From Coprococcus comes ATCC 27758 (GTDB lineage Bacteria; Bacillota; Clostridia; Lachnospirales; Lachnospiraceae), in assembly GCF_025149785.1 (NCBI RefSeq), contig NZ_CP102277.1, positions 2,728,001 to 2,792,000 on the forward strand: 64,000 nucleotides of DNA, in the 5' to 3' direction. This document shows positions 23,655-32,676 of this stretch, piece after piece. The position numbers and the translations under genes were made by a program. The notes under the pieces were generated by a model that was not told the DNA's origin, searched no databases, and saw only the letters and a program-made list of their open reading frames with translations. Position 1 is the stretch's first letter. Each line of letters opens with the position of its first letter.

Positions 23655-23737
23655 GCTTTCCCTTATTGTTTCCCTTGTATTATATTGTCCCACCAGTGTT
23701 TACGAACTCTGATAAGGGCAAACACAAGGGCAAGAAA
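23655..23737. repeat. Left arm-type repeat cluster of the nested element
   Basis: CTTTCCCTTATT and TTTCCCTT, then after a gap ATAAGGGCAAA and ACAAGGGCAAG, matching the cluster beside the inner integrase. The remainder of 23453-23843 shows no gene. Confidence 0.5.
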
Positions 23738-24259: not shown

Positions 24260-25408
24260 TTACTCAATCATAATTTCCTTGATAGAAATCTTCTTAATTT
24301 TTTCAGAATATATATACATCATAATTTCATAAATCGTGATAAAACAAGCAAGAGAAATAAGCATAGTAGGAAAGTCAAATTTATACGTAGGTACACCCTC
24401 GACATCCTTAAATACAATATCCACCATAAGCCGAAGCAATCCATACTGATATACTGTTCCGATTATAAAACCAATATAGGACAGCGGTCTGTATCCTCCT
24501 AAAATTGCCCTGCAACATTCTTTCTGTGAATAGCCGAATACTCTCATCATAGCAATAGTTTTTGTATTTCCGTTTATTACTGTGGTTATAGCAAGAAACA
24601 GAGTTGTAAACGCTAATACAAGTCCGATGACCAACATCATCACACCCATCATTTCACTTGATAAATCTTTCATACTAAACGACATTTGTGTCATAGCTGA
24701 AAAGCAAAACGAAGCAAAAATAATGAAGAATACAAGTGCCTTTTTAGATTTCAAGGTATTCCTTTTCAAATACTCTACAAACGACAATTCACTGCTTTTT
24801 TCGATTCTATGATTTGGTGTTTTAGAAGCAGTTTGCATATTATCTTTCAAAAGCAGCAACACAGGTTTTTTGAATTTGTACCAGGCATAATAAACTGAAA
24901 GTGCCGAAAAACACACAGTCGGCAATACCACAAAATAAAATAAAATGCTTGGATGAAAATTGATAGTTATCTCAGGAAGCATTTTATCTTCATTTTGTAG
25001 AGCGTAAAACCACGGCATTATAAGAAATGCTCCTGCATATCCGGTTACAGTTCCAATAAATATACTAATTCCGAATACCCAAAAGCTTTTTGCAATTTTG
25101 ATATTTGAATATCCCAACGCCTTTAATATCCCAAGTTCCTTCTTATGCGTGTCAATATAATGCTTAATATAAAACAACAACATAACAATCGCAGTTAAAA
25201 GCAAGCATCCTCCACTTACAAGGCAAACGACTTTTGCGGTAGAAACCTGAGCATTATAAAAAAACATTGATAATTCAGATGTAATTTCACTCTCAATTAA
25301 TCGAACATCAAAATAAAAGTTCAGAAACATTGTACAAACAAGAACAGCACAACAGGCTATAATGGAAATACCGATGAGTTTTGAAACATTTTTTATTCCA
25401 ACGAGCAT
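24260..25408 (-). CDS. FtsX-type ABC transporter permease
   Basis: 382 residues with about eight membrane spans in two groups of four. The FtsX pattern KKELGILKALGYSNIKIAKSF is in the first half and TIAMMRVFGYSQKECCRAIL in the second. Typical antibiotic-peptide permeases of Firmicutes are 600-700 residues with a large outer loop; here the outer loops are short, so the protein may be a compact form or have lost its first span. It works with the ATPase encoded 5 bases upstream. Confidence 0.8.
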   Translation of the reverse strand: MLVGIKNVSKLIGISIIACCAVLVCTMFLNFYFDVRLIESEITSELSMFFYNAQVSTAKVVCLVSGGCLLLTAIVMLLFYIKHYIDTHKKELGILKALGYSNIKIAKSFWVFGISIFIGTVTGYAGAFLIMPWFYALQNEDKMLPEITINFHPSILFYFVVLPTVCFSALSVYYAWYKFKKPVLLLLKDNMQTASKTPNHRIEKSSELSFVEYLKRNTLKSKKALVFFIIFASFCFSAMTQMSFSMKDLSSEMMGVMMLVIGLVLAFTTLFLAITTVINGNTKTIAMMRVFGYSQKECCRAILGGYRPLSYIGFIIGTVYQYGLLRLMVDIVFKDVEGVPTYKFDFPTMLISLACFITIYEIMMYIYSEKIKKISIKEIMIE

Positions 25409-25412
25409 ACCA

Positions 25413-26105
25413 TCACCACCCTATCTCATAAGCAGTCTTTTGTGCTTCATTTGTGTAAATTTCAGATATTTTTCCGCTATTCATTTTTATAACTGTGTTT
25501 GCCATTTCCGCAATATTCAAATTGTGCGTTACCATTACAATCGTAAAACCATATTCCTTTTGAAGTTTACATATATAATCAAGAACCTGTCGTCCTGTTT
25601 GTTCGTCTAATGCTCCTGTCGGTTCGTCAAGAAATAATACTCTCGGTCTTTTTGCCAAAGCTCTTGCAATAGATACTCTTTGCTGTTCGCCACCCGAAAG
25701 TTCGCTGGGATATTTATGTAGTTTTTCTCCGAGTCCAACCGCTCTAATGACGTTTTTATAATCTTTATTATTTGCTAAATCAGCACCCATTTTTACATTT
25801 TTATCAACGCTCATATTGGGTAGCAAATAATACTGCTGAAAAATAAATCCGACATTTTCCTTACGAAATGAAGTTAATTCATTATCAGAAAGTGCTGTAA
25901 TATTCTTTCCGTCATAAAACACTTTACCGCTGTCAGGGCGTTCAAGACCTGAAATTACATTCAAAAAGGTTGACTTGCCAGAACCAGATGCGCCGAGAAT
26001 AACCACAAAATCATTATCCTCAATATCAAGACTGATGTCCTTTAATACTTGGAATCGGCTTTCTCCGTTTTGGTAGGATTTTATTATATTTCTCGCTTTA
26101 ATCAT
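25413..26105 (-). CDS. ABC transporter ATPase (MacB/LolD type)
   Basis: 230 residues. Walker A GASGSGKST (about 38-46), Q loop FIFQQYYLLP, signature LSGGEQQRVSIARAL, Walker B RVLFLDEPTGALD and H loop VTHN are all present. The sequence class is the one that works with FtsX-type permeases to export or resist peptides and lipids. The ATG overlaps the end of the TetR gene by 8 bases, so translation is coupled. Complete and probably functional. Confidence 0.92.
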   Translation of the reverse strand: MIKARNIIKSYQNGESRFQVLKDISLDIEDNDFVVILGASGSGKSTFLNVISGLERPDSGKVFYDGKNITALSDNELTSFRKENVGFIFQQYYLLPNMSVDKNVKMGADLANNKDYKNVIRAVGLGEKLHKYPSELSGGEQQRVSIARALAKRPRVLFLDEPTGALDEQTGRQVLDYICKLQKEYGFTIVMVTHNLNIAEMANTVIKMNSGKISEIYTNEAQKTAYEIGW

Positions 26106-26679
26106 TATTTTCTCCTTCCTTCAGCTTTTTCAAAATACTCATACATACCTCAGTAATCATTGTACTGATTTCTTCGTCTGTAAATCGGCACATTTTTGTG
26201 GCACAAAGCGTTGCAATTCCGTGTGTATATATCCAAAGATGATGATACAGTTTTTTCCCAGCTGCCTTGCAAATTTTGTAATCATCTTGAATTGACAATA
26301 GAATTTGCTCATAACTTTCATCTATCAGCGGAAGTACACCAGATAAGTCAGGAATTTGTTTTTGCTCCGTCATAAAGAGAAGTTGAAAAAGCTTAGGCTC
26401 ATTAACAGCGAAGAGAATATATTGTGTACCCACCCCTTTAAACGGGGGCTCTGTTGTTAGTCCTTTATTGACATATTCTTTATACAGAGCTTTAGCAGAT
26501 TTAATCATATCCTGCTGAACCTCCTCCATATTTTTAAATACAGTAAAAATGGGTCTTGCCGAACTACCGAGATATGTTCCTAACGCTCTTGAAGTCAAAG
26601 CCTCATATCCGTCTGCCCTGACAATATTTAATGCGGCTTCAATAATTTCTGCTTTTGTAAATTTGGCTTTTGGTGGCAT
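26098..26679 (-). CDS. TetR-family repressor of the ABC exporter
   Basis: 193 residues. The N-terminal HTH reads FTKAEIIEAALNIVRADGYEALTSRALGTYLGSSARPIFTVFKN. The C-terminal half is helical with the WIYTHGIATLCA pattern of TetR_C ligand domains. First gene of a three-gene operon with the exporter, so it most likely represses its own operon until the exported compound is present. The operator is visible in the promoter. Confidence 0.9.
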   Translation of the reverse strand: MPPKAKFTKAEIIEAALNIVRADGYEALTSRALGTYLGSSARPIFTVFKNMEEVQQDMIKSAKALYKEYVNKGLTTEPPFKGVGTQYILFAVNEPKLFQLLFMTEQKQIPDLSGVLPLIDESYEQILLSIQDDYKICKAAGKKLYHHLWIYTHGIATLCATKMCRFTDEEISTMITEVCMSILKKLKEGENND

Positions 26680-27054: not shown

Positions 27055-28023
27055 TTAATAATATCCCCTTGTTTCCCGCCAGCCTTTTACATACCACCTG
27101 ATTCCAACATATACCAGTTGCACGAATAATAAGAAAAATAGCAGATTGATCGGCAATACTGTCTTTATCCAATCTCCAAAATAGATTGCTATTGCCATGC
27201 TTATAAGTGTTACCAGTATTGTAATCATATCCCAGCAGTATTTCTTATATAGCCCGGCAATCTTTATCCCGGTGAATGCTAAAAGTATTTCTGCACCCAC
27301 CAGACAGCCACCGCAAATCAATAATCTTATCAGCCAGTATATAATTCCGGTAATGACAGGATTGGATATTCCATTACTAATCTGTGCCACATTCTTTCCT
27401 GTCAGTATAATCCACCCTGCAATGCTCTGTATAAAAGTTGCGATTGTATCAAAGAATACCACGCAATCAGAAATAAAGATTTTTGACAGTATTATCTGAA
27501 AAAGAGTAGTCGATACGGAATACCATATCAGCAAAAACATCAATGCTTCATACATGGCTGTTTTTGCTTTATATCTGCCTGCCAGTTTTTCTCTCTGCGT
27601 ATCATACCTTTCCTTCGCTCTCAGATAAGCTGTCTGGTTACAATTCCCACACTTTTGATAGAGTACCGGCTTTTCAACCGGTATCTCTACTTTTTTCTGA
27701 TGGGAGAGTGCATAGTCCCGTTCCTGTTCTGCCTGTCTTAGCTTATCGCGACATTCCTCTATCATGTCCTTTGCGGTGAGCGTTTTCTCTTTCTCGCTCT
27801 GCAATAATTCTTTTGTTTTCCTCAAGTCGTTCTTTAAGGCTTGAATGTTCCCTGCTCTGTTCTCGCTGTTTAACCTCTCGTTCAAGGTCAGCGATTCGTC
27901 GAGCTGCACTTTCAGTTTCCTGATAGTCCGGTCTTTCTGGTCGAGTTCTTCCTGCATCTGCTCCGTCAGCATTAGCAGTTCTTCCAGTTGATCGTCGCTC
28001 TTTGAGTTTCTTAATTCGTTCAT
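27055..28023 (-). CDS. Coiled-coil membrane protein of the mobilization region (DUF6040-like)
   Basis: 322 residues. Residues 1-110 form a long charged coiled coil (DQLEELLMLTEQMQEEL onward). CGNCNQT around residue 125 may bind metal, and five or more membrane spans fill residues 160-310. The ATG at 28023 has AAGGAAGG seven bases upstream. Its first 281 bases overlap the end of the relaxase gene in another frame. A role at the membrane in mobilization is possible from context. Family label DUF6040 is from memory and moderate. Confidence 0.6.
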   Translation of the reverse strand: MNELRNSKSDDQLEELLMLTEQMQEELDQKDRTIRKLKVQLDESLTLNERLNSENRAGNIQALKNDLRKTKELLQSEKEKTLTAKDMIEECRDKLRQAEQERDYALSHQKKVEIPVEKPVLYQKCGNCNQTAYLRAKERYDTQREKLAGRYKAKTAMYEALMFLLIWYSVSTTLFQIILSKIFISDCVVFFDTIATFIQSIAGWIILTGKNVAQISNGISNPVITGIIYWLIRLLICGGCLVGAEILLAFTGIKIAGLYKKYCWDMITILVTLISMAIAIYFGDWIKTVLPINLLFFLLFVQLVYVGIRWYVKGWRETRGYY

Positions 28024-29464
28024 CAATCAACCTTCCTTTCTCTAATTGCTGTTCAAGTTCAGTAATTCGCTGTTCTGTTTCTGCAATAGCCGGTTCTCGC
28101 TGTTCAATTTCTGTGCCAATTCCTGCCATTGCTGATTTTCGTCTGTGAGTTTCTGTATCTGGTCTGTCTTTTCTTCCAGAAGCATCAACAGTTCTTCTGT
28201 ATCCGGTAAGATTTGTAGCAGCTCTGACAATTCTTTCTCTAATTGCTGCAATCGTTCTTCCTGCTCCTGAAAGCACATCAGCTTCTCGTCCTTTTCCTGT
28301 ATCTCCTGAAGCATCTCTGCCATGATATTCTGCTGTGCCTCTATCTGTGTAATCATTGCTTCCATCATGGGAATTACTTCTTTGCTTTCTTCTAATGTCA
28401 TTCAACCACTCCTTCCATATTGACAATGCACCGGATACCTTACCAAAGGTTGTGATTACCTTTTGCAGCAGTGCATTTTGTTTTTTAATCATCTGGTTTT
28501 CCTCTACCTTCCATGAACCATTCCATATCTGTCCGGTGAAATATTTTTCCTCAATCTTTCTTGCATCCGCACCCTCATGAATCGTAGGGATTTTTAATTT
28601 GCCCTGTCTTTCATAAGAACGGTGGTCAATCTGATTGTCTATGGATAAATGCCGGTTACACATCCCAGCCCATTCGCTTCGCCATAACTCACAATTCTTT
28701 GGATTATTCCAGCCGGTAGCATCGGTCAAAACCCGTTTCCATTGTTTTCGGTTTCTTGCCCCGACTTTCTGTACTCCGTTTTCATCAAGTACCGGAATGC
28801 GGATTCCATGCCGATCAGGATTTTTCTTATCCTGCCACCAGTCCGGGTGGGATTCATCAACCACGATATTTCCGTCAGTATCTCTGACAAAATCCCAGTC
28901 CTTGACTTCTTTGCTACCCCATGAATGGTCTGGATTGAATGGTCGCATGGTTACAAGTAAATGCACATGTGGGTTTCCATCGCCCTTATCGTGTATGCTC
29001 CAGTCGACACACATTCCCTTATCCACGAAAGTCTTTTGAATATATTCGGTTGTATAATCAATCTGTTCCTGTCTGCTCCATTCTTTCGGCAGGGAAAATT
29101 CAAATGAGCGTCCAAGCTGTGCATCTGCATTTTTTTCTATCTTCAATACCTCATTCCATAGACGCTGTTTCTGAAATGTGATTTTAAACTTTTCCAGTGC
29201 GGCATCTTTATCATCCGCTCTTTTATAACGGATAGACTGTTGAAACCTTTTTATATTTTCTTCCGGTACATGCAGCCATTCAGGAGGTGCATTTTCGCAC
29301 ATCATCAGACTGGTGTAGACGACTTCCTTTTTGGAAGTATAGTAACTGATTCTGCCTGTTTCCTCATTCTTCATCACATCTCCATTAAGATATGCCGATG
29401 CGGATATGACAGATTTTCCTTTACTGCGCCCGACAATCTTTACTGTAAAGTGAAATATCGCCAT
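27743..29464 (-). CDS. MobA/MobL-family relaxase (MobQ type)
   Basis: 573 residues. Nicks oriT and carries the DNA strand into a recipient. The N-terminus starts AIFHFTVKIVGRSKGKSVISASAYLNGD, with the catalytic Tyr in SAYLNGD. The three-His region is GDGNPHVHLLVTMRPF (HUH motif). After the relaxase domain (to about residue 280) the C-terminal 230 residues are charged and coiled, and this part is coded over two other genes. I chose the ATG at 29464 because GGGGG precedes it and MAIFHFTVK is the family's usual start. The oriT lies just upstream. No coupling ATPase or type IV secretion genes occur, so it depends on a helper. Confidence 0.88.
   Translation of the reverse strand: MAIFHFTVKIVGRSKGKSVISASAYLNGDVMKNEETGRISYYTSKKEVVYTSLMMCENAPPEWLHVPEENIKRFQQSIRYKRADDKDAALEKFKITFQKQRLWNEVLKIEKNADAQLGRSFEFSLPKEWSRQEQIDYTTEYIQKTFVDKGMCVDWSIHDKGDGNPHVHLLVTMRPFNPDHSWGSKEVKDWDFVRDTDGNIVVDESHPDWWQDKKNPDRHGIRIPVLDENGVQKVGARNRKQWKRVLTDATGWNNPKNCELWRSEWAGMCNRHLSIDNQIDHRSYERQGKLKIPTIHEGADARKIEEKYFTGQIWNGSWKVEENQMIKKQNALLQKVITTFGKVSGALSIWKEWLNDIRRKQRSNSHDGSNDYTDRGTAEYHGRDASGDTGKGREADVLSGAGRTIAAIRERIVRAATNLTGYRRTVDASGRKDRPDTETHRRKSAMAGIGTEIEQREPAIAETEQRITELEQQLEKGRLIDERIKKLKERRSTGRTANADGADAGRTRPERPDYQETESAARRIADLEREVKQREQSREHSSLKERLEENKRIIAERERENAHRKGHDRGMSR
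28042..28401 (-). CDS. Coiled-coil protein encoded inside the relaxase gene
   Basis: 119 residues, almost wholly coiled coil (EAMITQIEAQQNIMAEMLQEI, then repeated LEKELSELL and LLEEKTDQIQKL heptads). It lies entirely within the relaxase gene in a different frame and ends 18 bases before the start of the next gene, in the same frame as that gene. AAGGAG lies seven bases before its ATG, an ideal site placed inside relaxase codons. This recalls mobB inside mobA of plasmid RSF1010. It could instead be a chance open frame, but the ribosome binding site and amphipathic pattern argue against that. Confidence 0.6.
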   Translation of the reverse strand: MTLEESKEVIPMMEAMITQIEAQQNIMAEMLQEIQEKDEKLMCFQEQEERLQQLEKELSELLQILPDTEELLMLLEEKTDQIQKLTDENQQWQELAQKLNSENRLLQKQNSELLNLNSN

Positions 29465-29744: not shown

Positions 29745-30059
29745 TTACACTTCCTCCATATCTGTAAATGGCTCTTTCTGCATCGCCTTTGAGAAAAACT
29801 TTCCGTTTGTTTCCTGCCTTTTTAAGAAGCCTATCAACTTTGGTAAATCTTCCTCCTCAATCGGACAGCCAAGAACCGATTCCACTGCGCCACCAATCTG
29901 ACAGAGCCTGTGGGTTCGTTTTTTACTTTCCTCTGCTTTCTTTCGCTTTTCCAGTTCCTTCCGCTGTGCAATGAGCTTTTTTGTAGCTTCAATGCTTTCC
30001 TGTTCCTTTTTCTCTAATGCACGTATTCTTTCTTCATAAGTCTTTGTTGATTTCGCCAT
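29745..30059 (-). CDS. DUF3847 family mobilization accessory protein
   Basis: 104 residues. A basic coiled-coil start (KTYEERIRALEKKEQESIEA, KELEKRKKAEESKKRTHRL) is followed by the family core QIGGAVESVLG and EEEDLPKLIGFLKRQE. DUF3847 proteins are regularly found next to MobA/MobL relaxases and probably help bind oriT, but this is association, not proof. The ATG at 30059 follows AAAGGATG. It flanks the oriT on the other side from the relaxase. Confidence 0.75.
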   Translation of the reverse strand: MAKSTKTYEERIRALEKKEQESIEATKKLIAQRKELEKRKKAEESKKRTHRLCQIGGAVESVLGCPIEEEDLPKLIGFLKRQETNGKFFSKAMQKEPFTDMEEV

Positions 30060-30203
30060 ATCGTCTTCATCCTTTCTTTTTCCGATAAACAACAGTTCCC
30101 GGTTGCATATCAGGAGAAGCACATGGTATAATCCTCTTGCGTGTAGGTATATCATGGCTTCGGTCTGATAGAACCTTTGGCGGTTTCTTAGGAAGCCGCC
30201 TTT

Positions 30204-30434
30204 TTAAGTTGCCACATTTCTTGTGACAGCTTTTACATTTCCTTTATCCCTCAGATCACGCCCCTCGTTGGCTTCCATGAACTTTTCCAGAATGTCAGTT
30301 TTAATAAGGACTTTTCTTCCGACCTTTAATACCGGAAGCTTCTTCCATTCAACCAGCTTTCTCAAAGTGTTTCTGCCAATTCCTGTATAGTCGGCTGCTT
30401 CCTCGATGGATAATGCAATCTTTCTTTCCGTCAT
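30204..30434 (-). CDS. xis: Excisionase-type helix-turn-helix protein
   Basis: 76 residues, small winged-helix of the MerR/Xis type: LSIEEAADYTGIGRNTLRKLVE, then LPVLKVGRKVLIKTDILEKFME. This is the Tn916-Xis-like pattern. It directs the integrase toward excision. It is divergent from the XRE repressor gene, with its own promoter and a 19-bp operator. AAGGAGG precedes the ATG. Confidence 0.85.
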   Translation of the reverse strand: MTERKIALSIEEAADYTGIGRNTLRKLVEWKKLPVLKVGRKVLIKTDILEKFMEANEGRDLRDKGNVKAVTRNVAT

Positions 30435-31237: not shown

Positions 31238-31323
31238 AACGACAACCGGAGTTATGATATACTTACACGCAAGAAGCATTTCATCAGTTCCGATTGTCTG
31301 ATATCGAAAGGAGACACACGATT

Positions 31324-32619
31324 ATGGCAAAAGGATCTGTAAGAAAAAAAGGAAAGAAATGGTACTACCGCTTCTATGTAGAAGATGCAAGCGGCAATCT
31401 GGTTCAGAAAGAATACGCTGGAACAGAAAGTAAAAGTGAAACGGAAAAACTGCTCCGTCAGGCAATGGACGATTACGAAAGCAAGAAATTCATTGCAAAG
31501 TCGGAAAATATTACAATTGGAGAATTACTTGATATATGGGCAGAGGAAGAATTAAAGACCGGTACGCTCAGTAATGGGACAGTCCAGAATTACCTCGGTG
31601 CCATTACCAACATCAAGAAGCATCCAATTTCAGAGAGAAAGTTGAAAAATGTAACATCTGAGCATTTACAAGCCTTCTTCGATCTGCTTTCCTTTGGTGG
31701 CACTTATCCAGATGGTTCAGAAAGAAAAGGTTATAGCAAAGATTACATTCGTTCTTTCTCGGCAGTATTACAGCAGTCATTCCGATTTGCAGTATCACCA
31801 AAGCAATATATCACTTTCAATCCGATGCAGTATATTAAGCTGAAATACCAGACGGATGAGGTTGACCTGTTTTCCGATGATGACATGGATGGCGATATAC
31901 AGCCAATTCCACGAGAGGATTATGAAAGACTGATTGAATTTCTACAGAATTACAATCCACCGGCAATACTTCCAATCCAGATAGCTTATTATGCAGGACT
32001 TCGTATCGGTGAAGCCTGTGGTCTGGCATGGCAGGATGTGAATCTTGAAGAACAGTGCCTTACAATCAGACGCAGTATCCGATATGATGGTTCAAGGCAC
32101 AAGAATATCATCGGACCAACCAAACGAAAAAAGGTAAGGATTGTTGATTTTGGAGATACACTGGCAGAGATTCTTCGCAATGCCCGAAAGGAACAACTTA
32201 AAAACCGAATGCAGTACGGAGAACTTTACCATAAAAACTACTACAGAGAAGTAAAAGACAAAAACAGAGTTTACTATGAGTTCTATCATCTGGACGGAAC
32301 AGAGAATGTTCCAGAAGATTATAAGGAAATATCCTTTGTCTGCTTAAGACCGGATGGAAGTTTGGAACTGCCAAGCACGTTAGGAATTGTTTGCAGGAAG
32401 ATTGCTCAGAAACTGGATGGATTTGAAGGATTTCATTTTCACCAGTTGCGACACACCTACACAAGCAACCTTCTGGCAAATGGAGCAGCACCAAAGGATG
32501 TGCAGGAACTGTTAGGGCACTCAGATGTCAGTACCACCATGAATGTCTATGCACACTCTACAAGAAAAGCCAAGCGGGAATCTGCAAGGTTACTTGATAA
32601 AGTGGCAGGCAATGACTAA
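31324..32619 (+). CDS. int: Tyrosine recombinase (integrase) of the nested element
   Basis: 431 residues, Tn916-Int style. The N-terminal GSVRKKGKKWYYRFYVED is the AP2-like arm-binding domain. The core-binding domain spans about 65-170. The catalytic set is GLRIGEACGL (Arg), HFHQLRHTYTS (His-x-x-Arg), LGHSDVSTT (His) and MNVYAHST (Tyr nucleophile), so it is complete. An insertion of about 60 residues sits between the first Arg and the later motifs, as in several Clostridia relatives. I chose the ATG at 31324, preceded by AAAGGAG. The gene ends 8 bases before the CCCTTATT repeat cluster at the right end. Confidence 0.92.
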   Translation: MAKGSVRKKGKKWYYRFYVEDASGNLVQKEYAGTESKSETEKLLRQAMDDYESKKFIAKSENITIGELLDIWAEEELKTGTLSNGTVQNYLGAITNIKKHPISERKLKNVTSEHLQAFFDLLSFGGTYPDGSERKGYSKDYIRSFSAVLQQSFRFAVSPKQYITFNPMQYIKLKYQTDEVDLFSDDDMDGDIQPIPREDYERLIEFLQNYNPPAILPIQIAYYAGLRIGEACGLAWQDVNLEEQCLTIRRSIRYDGSRHKNIIGPTKRKKVRIVDFGDTLAEILRNARKEQLKNRMQYGELYHKNYYREVKDKNRVYYEFYHLDGTENVPEDYKEISFVCLRPDGSLELPSTLGIVCRKIAQKLDGFEGFHFHQLRHTYTSNLLANGAAPKDVQELLGHSDVSTTMNVYAHSTRKAKRESARLLDKVAGND

Positions 32620-32626
32620 ATAAAAC

Positions 32627-32676
32627 TTTCCCTTATTTCCCTTACGATTATCTCATAAGGGCAAAAATAAGGGAAA
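32627..32676. repeat. Right arm-type repeat cluster of the nested element
   Basis: CTTTCCCTTATT-TCCCTTA and TAAGGGCAAAAATAAGGGAAA form an interrupted inverted repeat directly after the inner integrase gene. They may serve both as arm sites and as a hairpin ending the transcript. Confidence 0.55.

Follow-up and report, generated by a model that had tools for sequence, protein, structure and literature searches.

The analysed window, 64,000 nucleotides (nt) of the genome of Coprococcus comes ATCC 27758 (NZ_CP102277.1, positions 2,728,001 to 2,792,000), carries a group of mobilization genes on its reverse strand, in which two smaller genes are, with near certainty, overprinted on the tail of a relaxase gene. 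The outer gene (27743..29464, minus strand) encodes a MobA/MobL (MOBQ-type) relaxase of 573 amino acids (aa), with a PF03389 match at residues 17-307 (E-value 5e-73; 246 bits against a cut-off of 26.7). Wholly within it lies ORF119 (28042..28401, minus strand), an open reading frame (ORF) with an ATG start which encodes an acidic coiled-coil protein of 119 aa and isoelectric point (pI) 4.2. This is followed by a gene for a DUF6040 protein (27055..28023, minus strand; PF19506, E-value 2.8e-105, residues 90-322, 351.4 bits against a cut-off of 23.4). Both inner ORFs are at +1 to the relaxase, with 15 nt between them when counted to the TTG codon at 28026. The DUF6040 protein has 322 aa from the ATG at 28023 and 323 aa from this TTG; its first ~94 codons (27743-28023) are nested in the relaxase gene and the remaining 688 nt extend beyond the relaxase stop. 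The dual-coded bases comprise the 360 nt of ORF119 with its stop and 281-284 nt of DUF6040. An earlier first-pass annotation, made from the sequence of the window, had described ~640 dual-coded bases at 27743-28401, and its coordinates are confirmed, with the relaxase stop at 27743, ORF119 at 28042-28401 and the DUF6040 ORF at 27055-28026 from the TTG. Each inner gene is preceded by a ribosome-binding site within relaxase codons, as that annotation also described, namely GGAAGGAG for ORF119 (28409..28416, minus strand), read directly from the sequence, and AAGGAAGG for DUF6040 (28031..28038, minus strand), read in the same way and supported by its pairing strength.

One scan of genome contigs provided 59 relaxase loci, to which loci from whole genomes were added. 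At 61 loci the relaxase was matched from its first residue with an identity of at least 50%. Nine of these were excluded, the relaxase frame being broken early in L025, L027, L028, L048, and L068 (some of them near-identical) and the locus itself being cut or truncated in L046, L058, L059, and L061. This left 52 complete and unbroken relaxases, 43 of them unique with that of the window included, the others of the 43 being ~50-98% identical. ORF119 and its nested counterparts at the other loci are referred to here as ORF1. The start of ORF1 is kept at the homologous codon in all 43 unique relaxases (35 ATG, 8 GTG), and in each case a purine-rich ribosome site precedes it: TGGAAGGAG in 28, TGGAAGGGG in eight, and TGGAGGGAG in seven. 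The DUF6040 frame is kept in 39 of the 43 loci and its first start codon is located 12-18 nt past the ORF1 stop in every one of these. The first-pass annotation would have been refuted by inner frames broken in close relatives retaining the relaxase; ORF119 is not refuted in this way, as none of the 43 has lost it, and for DUF6040 four (L054-L057) have no match in the DNA examined. The nested coil in these four is 130-232 aa in length, three being longer (202-232 aa), apparently through repeat units readable in both frames, and the relaxase is followed by a short excisionase-like gene and an integrase-like gene, both named by resemblance.

Pairing of the ribosome sites with the anti-Shine-Dalgarno sequence has a median of -8.6 kcal/mol for ORF1 (13 cluster representatives) and -8.2 kcal/mol for DUF6040 (10 representatives, best of neighbouring starts), a strength matched by ~1% of 566 out-of-frame start codons in relaxase heads. 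The ATG at 28023 is a likelier start of DUF6040 than the adjacent TTG: its distance to the ribosome site is more favourable, and in 25 of the 39 loci with DUF6040 the first start codon corresponds to this ATG. At the divergent MobA/MobL locus L138, the first DUF6040 start pairs poorly (-3.0 kcal/mol) and a second ATG 9 nt later is preceded by AAGGAGG. This locus and four other divergent ones (L142, L148, L151, and L158) have a shorter nested coil of 64-81 aa before DUF6040, sharing the DUF6040 frame, and AAAGYGAGG sequences recur before its start. It should also be mentioned that in the five loci with an early broken relaxase frame, possibly decaying elements, tblastn matches ORF119 over its full length (5/5; match only).

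The substitution pattern of the relaxase codons changes on entry to the overlap. When 13 cluster representatives are compared in 78 pairs, the proportions of sites that differ at relaxase codon positions 1, 2, and 3 (p1/p2/p3) are 0.190/0.131/0.485 before the overlap, 0.430/0.336/0.277 in the ORF119 region, and 0.469/0.376/0.461 in the DUF6040 part, the mean for the latter including three representatives without DUF6040 (L054, L055, L056). The ratio p3/p1 is 2.55, 0.64, and 0.98, respectively. Relaxase position 3 slows because it is the second position of the inner codons, and relaxase position 1 speeds up because it is their wobble position; of the two frames, the inner one is under the tighter constraint in the ORF119 region. 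Within clusters, p3/p1 is 0.27-0.92 for ORF119 and 0.55-1.84 for the DUF6040 part, where one cluster has no differences. As a negative control, 13 pairs of other MobA/MobL relaxases (at least 50% identity, last 200 codons, pairs sharing members) gave p3/p1 values of 1.24-5.33. As a positive control, the relaxase gene mbeA of ColE1, which contains the nested genes mbeB and mbeD, gave 2.53 ahead of the nested genes, with 1.06 and 1.04 within the two (15 pairs, six plasmids).

Conservation of the encoded residues was assessed with an ancestry-aware null, in which codons are resampled with preservation of the observed synonymous divergence (400 simulations per test). This replaced a first null based on full resampling, which was dropped as it ignores shared ancestry. 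The tests cover all of the 12 non-reference representatives except L054 and L056 and are not independent, as all compare with the sequence of the window. Conservation of the inner protein exceeds the level imposed by the relaxase frame in 19 of 20 tests, and conservation of the relaxase tail exceeds that imposed by the inner frame in all 20; each of these results lies beyond all 400 simulations. The lone failure is the DUF6040 region of L055, a locus with no DUF6040 match. With the inner residues fixed, 4.5-11.1 stops would be expected in the relaxase frame per region and none is seen (P ≤0.003). With the relaxase residues fixed and codons resampled, the openness of ORF1 has a P-value of 0.0005-0.02 in 11 of 13 representatives (0.16 in L055 and 0.38 in L052). 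That of the DUF6040 part is weaker, with P<0.01 in six of nine representatives and 0.11-0.14 in three; the DUF6040 part of L052, which is outside these nine, has a conservation z of 6.5 and an openness P of 0.08 in the ancestry-aware test. Substitution pattern and residue conservation are stronger evidence for double coding than openness. It is close to certain that the double coding is real, and the first-pass annotation is supported as regards both the double coding and the ribosome sites.

The cut-off for DUF6040 is exceeded in 37 of 397 genomes in a sample of the host family and in six of 391 in a sample of the class. A pool of 102 loci, with or without DUF6040, was formed from these family and class samples, further loci, and a search with a divergent member. 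Removal of identical DNA and retention of frames open for at least 250 residues gave 37 distinct DUF6040 genes, near-identical copies counting separately (the equality with the 37 genomes is coincidental). All 37 start inside another ORF, always at +1, with overlaps of 248-602 nt. The count takes each frame from its earliest start codon, so that overlaps come out longer, and includes the damaged loci L120, L141, and L175, whose DUF6040 frame still runs for 250 residues; it leaves out fragments below that length and weak hits. As all 37 genes start in this manner, nesting inside another ORF looks like a rule of DUF6040. The outer ORFs are MobA/MobL-like in 20 cases, PF03432-like (second type) in 11, and unassigned in six, among which four run open to the beginning of the locus. 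A Pfam search of second-type ORFs identified PF03432 in five of six, L147 being without a match. At nine second-type loci DUF6040 begins at +1 and has a strong ribosome site (-8.2 to -11.4 kcal/mol). In close pairs of such loci the codon pattern is flattened inside the overlap: p1/p2/p3 goes from 0.057/0.014/0.176 to 0.191/0.146/0.191 in the pair L143/L144 and from 0.038/0.019/0.211 to 0.027/0.047/0.027 in L145/L153. The labels of both relaxase types are supported by the available text of PMC5357655, which equates PF03389 with MobQ and PF03432 with MobP.

The genome of the window itself has two further copies, a MobA/MobL copy at 73% and a PF03432 copy (L145, L170), the latter with its DUF6040 gene (G000:C1:2717077-2718168) nested by 449 nt in the relaxase and located ~10 kb before the window start. 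The first-pass annotation had judged a run of two overprinted genes to be unusual in this family. The family scope proves too narrow, because DUF6040 is also nested in PF03432 relaxases, and the run is less singular than supposed, given the nesting of all 37 DUF6040 genes and the mbeB/mbeD tandem at +1 in mbeA of ColE1, which means that two such genes in tandem are not new.

The anatomy of the three proteins is as follows. The relaxase scores 174.7 bits with the NCBIfam MobQ equivalog NF041496, under the cut-off of 200. Residues H158, K160, H166, and H168 are invariant across 15 aligned relaxases and represent the HUH-type histidine motif. Its tail (residues ~355-573), mostly dual-coded, is basic (pI 9.8, 17% arginine) and ends in RGMSR. 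Of the 43 relaxases, 27 have an RGxSR ending, as have two of seven second-type relaxases; no such ending occurs among 20 long ORFs from control loci, the nearest being RGMSL. Basic C-termini can serve as secretion signals. Phage records gave six weak relaxase matches. The AlphaFold2 (AF2) model of ORF119 is a single helix (residues 3-118, mean pLDDT 95). That of the DUF6040 protein has a helix at 9-109 followed by helices at 131-320 (mean pLDDT 82, pTM 0.48), corresponding to an acidic N-terminal coil, a linker bearing CxxC, and a hydrophobic multi-helix C-terminal domain which is predicted to lie in the membrane. The relaxase stop falls at DUF6040 residue ~94 and the PF19506 match begins at residue 90, leaving the nested coil outside the Pfam match; it is therefore the N-terminal coil which is dual-coded and not the conserved membrane domain. 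The charge difference recurs, with a pI of 4.1-4.6 for ORF119 and counterparts (seven loci), 4.6-5.1 for the DUF6040 N-terminal part (six), and 9.5-10.3 for the relaxase tail (seven). A Pfam scan of ORF119 and 17 counterparts gave scattered matches, mostly to coiled-coil families, the commonest being DUF2203 (6/18).

The explanation favoured here, which we hold to be probable, is that of a mobilization module in which one DNA stretch gives three real proteins, the two inner ones acting as relaxosome accessories at the membrane or helper channel. The accessory role is a reasoned guess from position and anatomy. In this scheme the acidic coils would attach to the basic tail of the relaxase, and the DUF6040 protein would hold the relaxosome at the membrane or deliver it to a coupling protein supplied by a conjugative element in the same cell. 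Nesting, with the ORF1 stop so close ahead of the first DUF6040 start, may allow three products to be made from one transcript by translational coupling, and would keep matched partners together during transfer.

Several points weigh against this explanation. No homology was detectable between ORF119 and ColE1 MbeD or between DUF6040 and MbeB (hhalign probabilities of 0.25% and 1.6%), and a PDB fold search with the DUF6040 model gave 18 matches, the best with an E-value of 2.4 and none at or below 0.001, so that position and anatomy are the basis of the proposed function. At the four loci L054-L057, relaxase and nested coil are retained with no DUF6040 match at the locus (~2 kb downstream examined for L055 and L057). 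The pairing of acid with base is partly forced by the genetic code, as GAR codons in one frame favour arginine, glycine, or lysine in the next, and it is not common to the closest parallel, since the tail of ColE1 MbeA is acidic (pI 5.3) rather than basic. The codon signature is weaker for the DUF6040 part, its p3/p1 of 0.98 overall reaching 1.84 in the L002 cluster. In the negative controls the mean p3/p1 falls from 2.13 in heads to 1.54 in tails (lowest 1.24), and divergent tails therefore flatten somewhat even without nested genes.

A first alternative is that the nested genes are real and serve in exclusion or immunity, by blocking the entry of other elements or competing with them, in place of relaxosome assembly. 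The precedent is ColE1 MbeD, likewise a short nested acidic protein (77 aa, pI 4.7), which is annotated as a 'mobilization/exclusion protein'. ORF119, however, has no homology to MbeD; moreover, the coil gene stays with the relaxase at the four loci without a DUF6040 match, and DUF6040 accompanies two relaxase families. A partner of the relaxase therefore fits better, and we consider exclusion unlikely. The overlap could also be mainly regulatory, with internal starts and tight spacing setting the timing or amounts of relaxase versus downstream products and any activity of the coil being secondary. The 12-18 nt spacing in 39/39 loci would suit translational coupling of this kind, but ORF1 residues are conserved far past what the relaxase frame demands (z 7.6-10.1 in ten representatives) and the coil gene persists where DUF6040 is missing, which makes a mainly regulatory overlap improbable.

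The view that only one frame is real, the inner ORFs being open by composition or the relaxase tail an irrelevant run-on, could draw on the non-significant openness values above (the three DUF6040 parts at 0.11-0.14, and ORF1 in L055 and L052); it is very hard to reconcile with the conservation of each frame past the requirement of the other, the absence of the expected relaxase-frame stops, and the controls. Least credible is programmed frameshifting into a relaxase-coil fusion, for although ORF1 is at +1 throughout and a single +1 shift would enter it, an in-frame stop lies immediately before the ORF1 start in 26 of 43 loci and 21-66 nt upstream in the other 17, and the start and ribosome site are kept in all 43.

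Alongside the relaxosome accessory explanation, a more tentative suggestion, which we regard as rather unlikely, is that the dual-coded tail and DUF6040 form one exchangeable cassette, onto which the catalytic heads of the PF03389 and PF03432 families have been swapped. In the DUF6040 alignment, the relaxase stops of the two types map to neighbouring columns (209-238 for seven PF03389-type loci, 224-243 for seven PF03432-type loci). Stop-anchored tails of the two types have a mean score of 7.5 versus -9.4 to 2.5 in shifted registers, a maximum of -6.1 in a codon-resampling null which ignores shared ancestry, and -1.4 for the inner frame over the same stretch. Much of the likeness is due to a small number of pairs, in which L138 is matched with L143 or L144, or the window with L143. 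RGxSR endings occur in three of the seven PF03389-type and two of the seven PF03432-type loci compared. If such a cassette exists, it would always carry two matched binding partners, since one nucleotide string writes both an acidic coil and an arginine-rich tail, and an element could change its oriT specificity while retaining its membrane or channel docking.

Upstream of the relaxase is a gene of 136 aa (29745..30155, minus strand) with a weak DUF3847 match (PF12958, E-value 2.8e-8, 34.1 bits, under the family cut-off of 40), a possible relaxosome accessory. At higher coordinates lie an excisionase-like helix-turn-helix ORF of 76 aa (30204..30434, minus strand), its role assigned by resemblance, and the putative tyrosine-type integrase of the element (31294..32619, plus strand), an ORF named by position and resemblance. 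In a plasmid copy of the module (L096), the genes placed like these two are annotated as helix-turn-helix and tyrosine-type recombinase/integrase. The TraG-type family PF12696 has no match within the window and has two strong matches and one short weak match elsewhere in the genome, other channel genes not being searched. A relaxase and a putative integrase, together with the lack of TraG-type matches in the window, suggest the module of a mobilizable element, probably an integrative one. Permease-like, ATP-binding-cassette-like, and TetR-like ORFs at 24260-26679, named by resemblance and possibly cargo, adjoin the mobilization genes. An imperfect 26-nt direct repeat (85%; 23708-23733 and 32651-32676), one copy just past the integrase and the other 8.9 kb off, was considered as a candidate for the element ends and not accepted.

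According to the abstract of PMC5810103, annotation pipelines generally leave out long overlaps between two protein genes, hence few have been described in bacteria. Gene tables seem to resolve such overlaps by omission. In that of L096, DUF6040 starts 62 nt before the relaxase stop and ORF119 is not listed, and the ColE1-like tables (L169, L200-L204), self-described as incomplete, list mbeB and mbeD and not the outer mbeA frame. The Pfam match sets in where the overlap ends, and the plasmid-copy table starts the gene late; it appears that the nested N-terminal coil is regularly missed when members of the DUF6040 family are read. No open-access paper naming DUF6040 was found, and neither the link with DUF6040, nesting across two relaxase families, nor ORF119 was found in the accessible portions of the open-access literature (including PMC5357655, PMC12904643, PMC6854812, and PMC5313138). 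Should the inner proteins be relaxosome accessories, they would be overlooked parts of mobilization modules in many gut elements, and a good test case for the persistence of overprinted genes.

Accessory genes nested in relaxase genes have parallels in several plasmids. RSF1010 has a MOBQ relaxase, MobA, and its MobB is a membrane protein. In RP4, traI contains the nested traH, a small acidic relaxosome-stabilising protein thus being encoded inside the relaxase gene. No MobB family was present among the Pfam matches of the window proteins and ORF119 counterparts, no direct comparison with the RSF1010 sequence being made, and no MbeB or MbeD family among those of the window proteins, second-type ORFs, and ORF119 counterparts. 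RSF1010 mobB, which the first-pass annotation had offered as the known parallel, is indeed an accessory gene in another frame of the relaxase gene (mobA/repB) and is essential for mobilization according to the available text of PMC2200642, the likeness being by that description; it differs in being a single nested gene on a broad-host-range plasmid. The closer parallel is ColE1, in which mbeB and mbeD form a tandem, both at +1 in the mbeA frame and 3-6 nt apart in the six plasmids, with a similar codon-position signature; there too, a short acidic protein is accompanied by one that contains a hydrophobic segment. However, MbeA is a MOBP relaxase of enterobacteria, the gene order is reversed with the membrane gene first, and mbeB and mbeD lie wholly inside mbeA, whose frame ends 95-110 nt past mbeD, whereas DUF6040 lies only partly inside its relaxase gene. 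Relaxase-nested accessory genes are thus already known from ColE1 and RSF1010.

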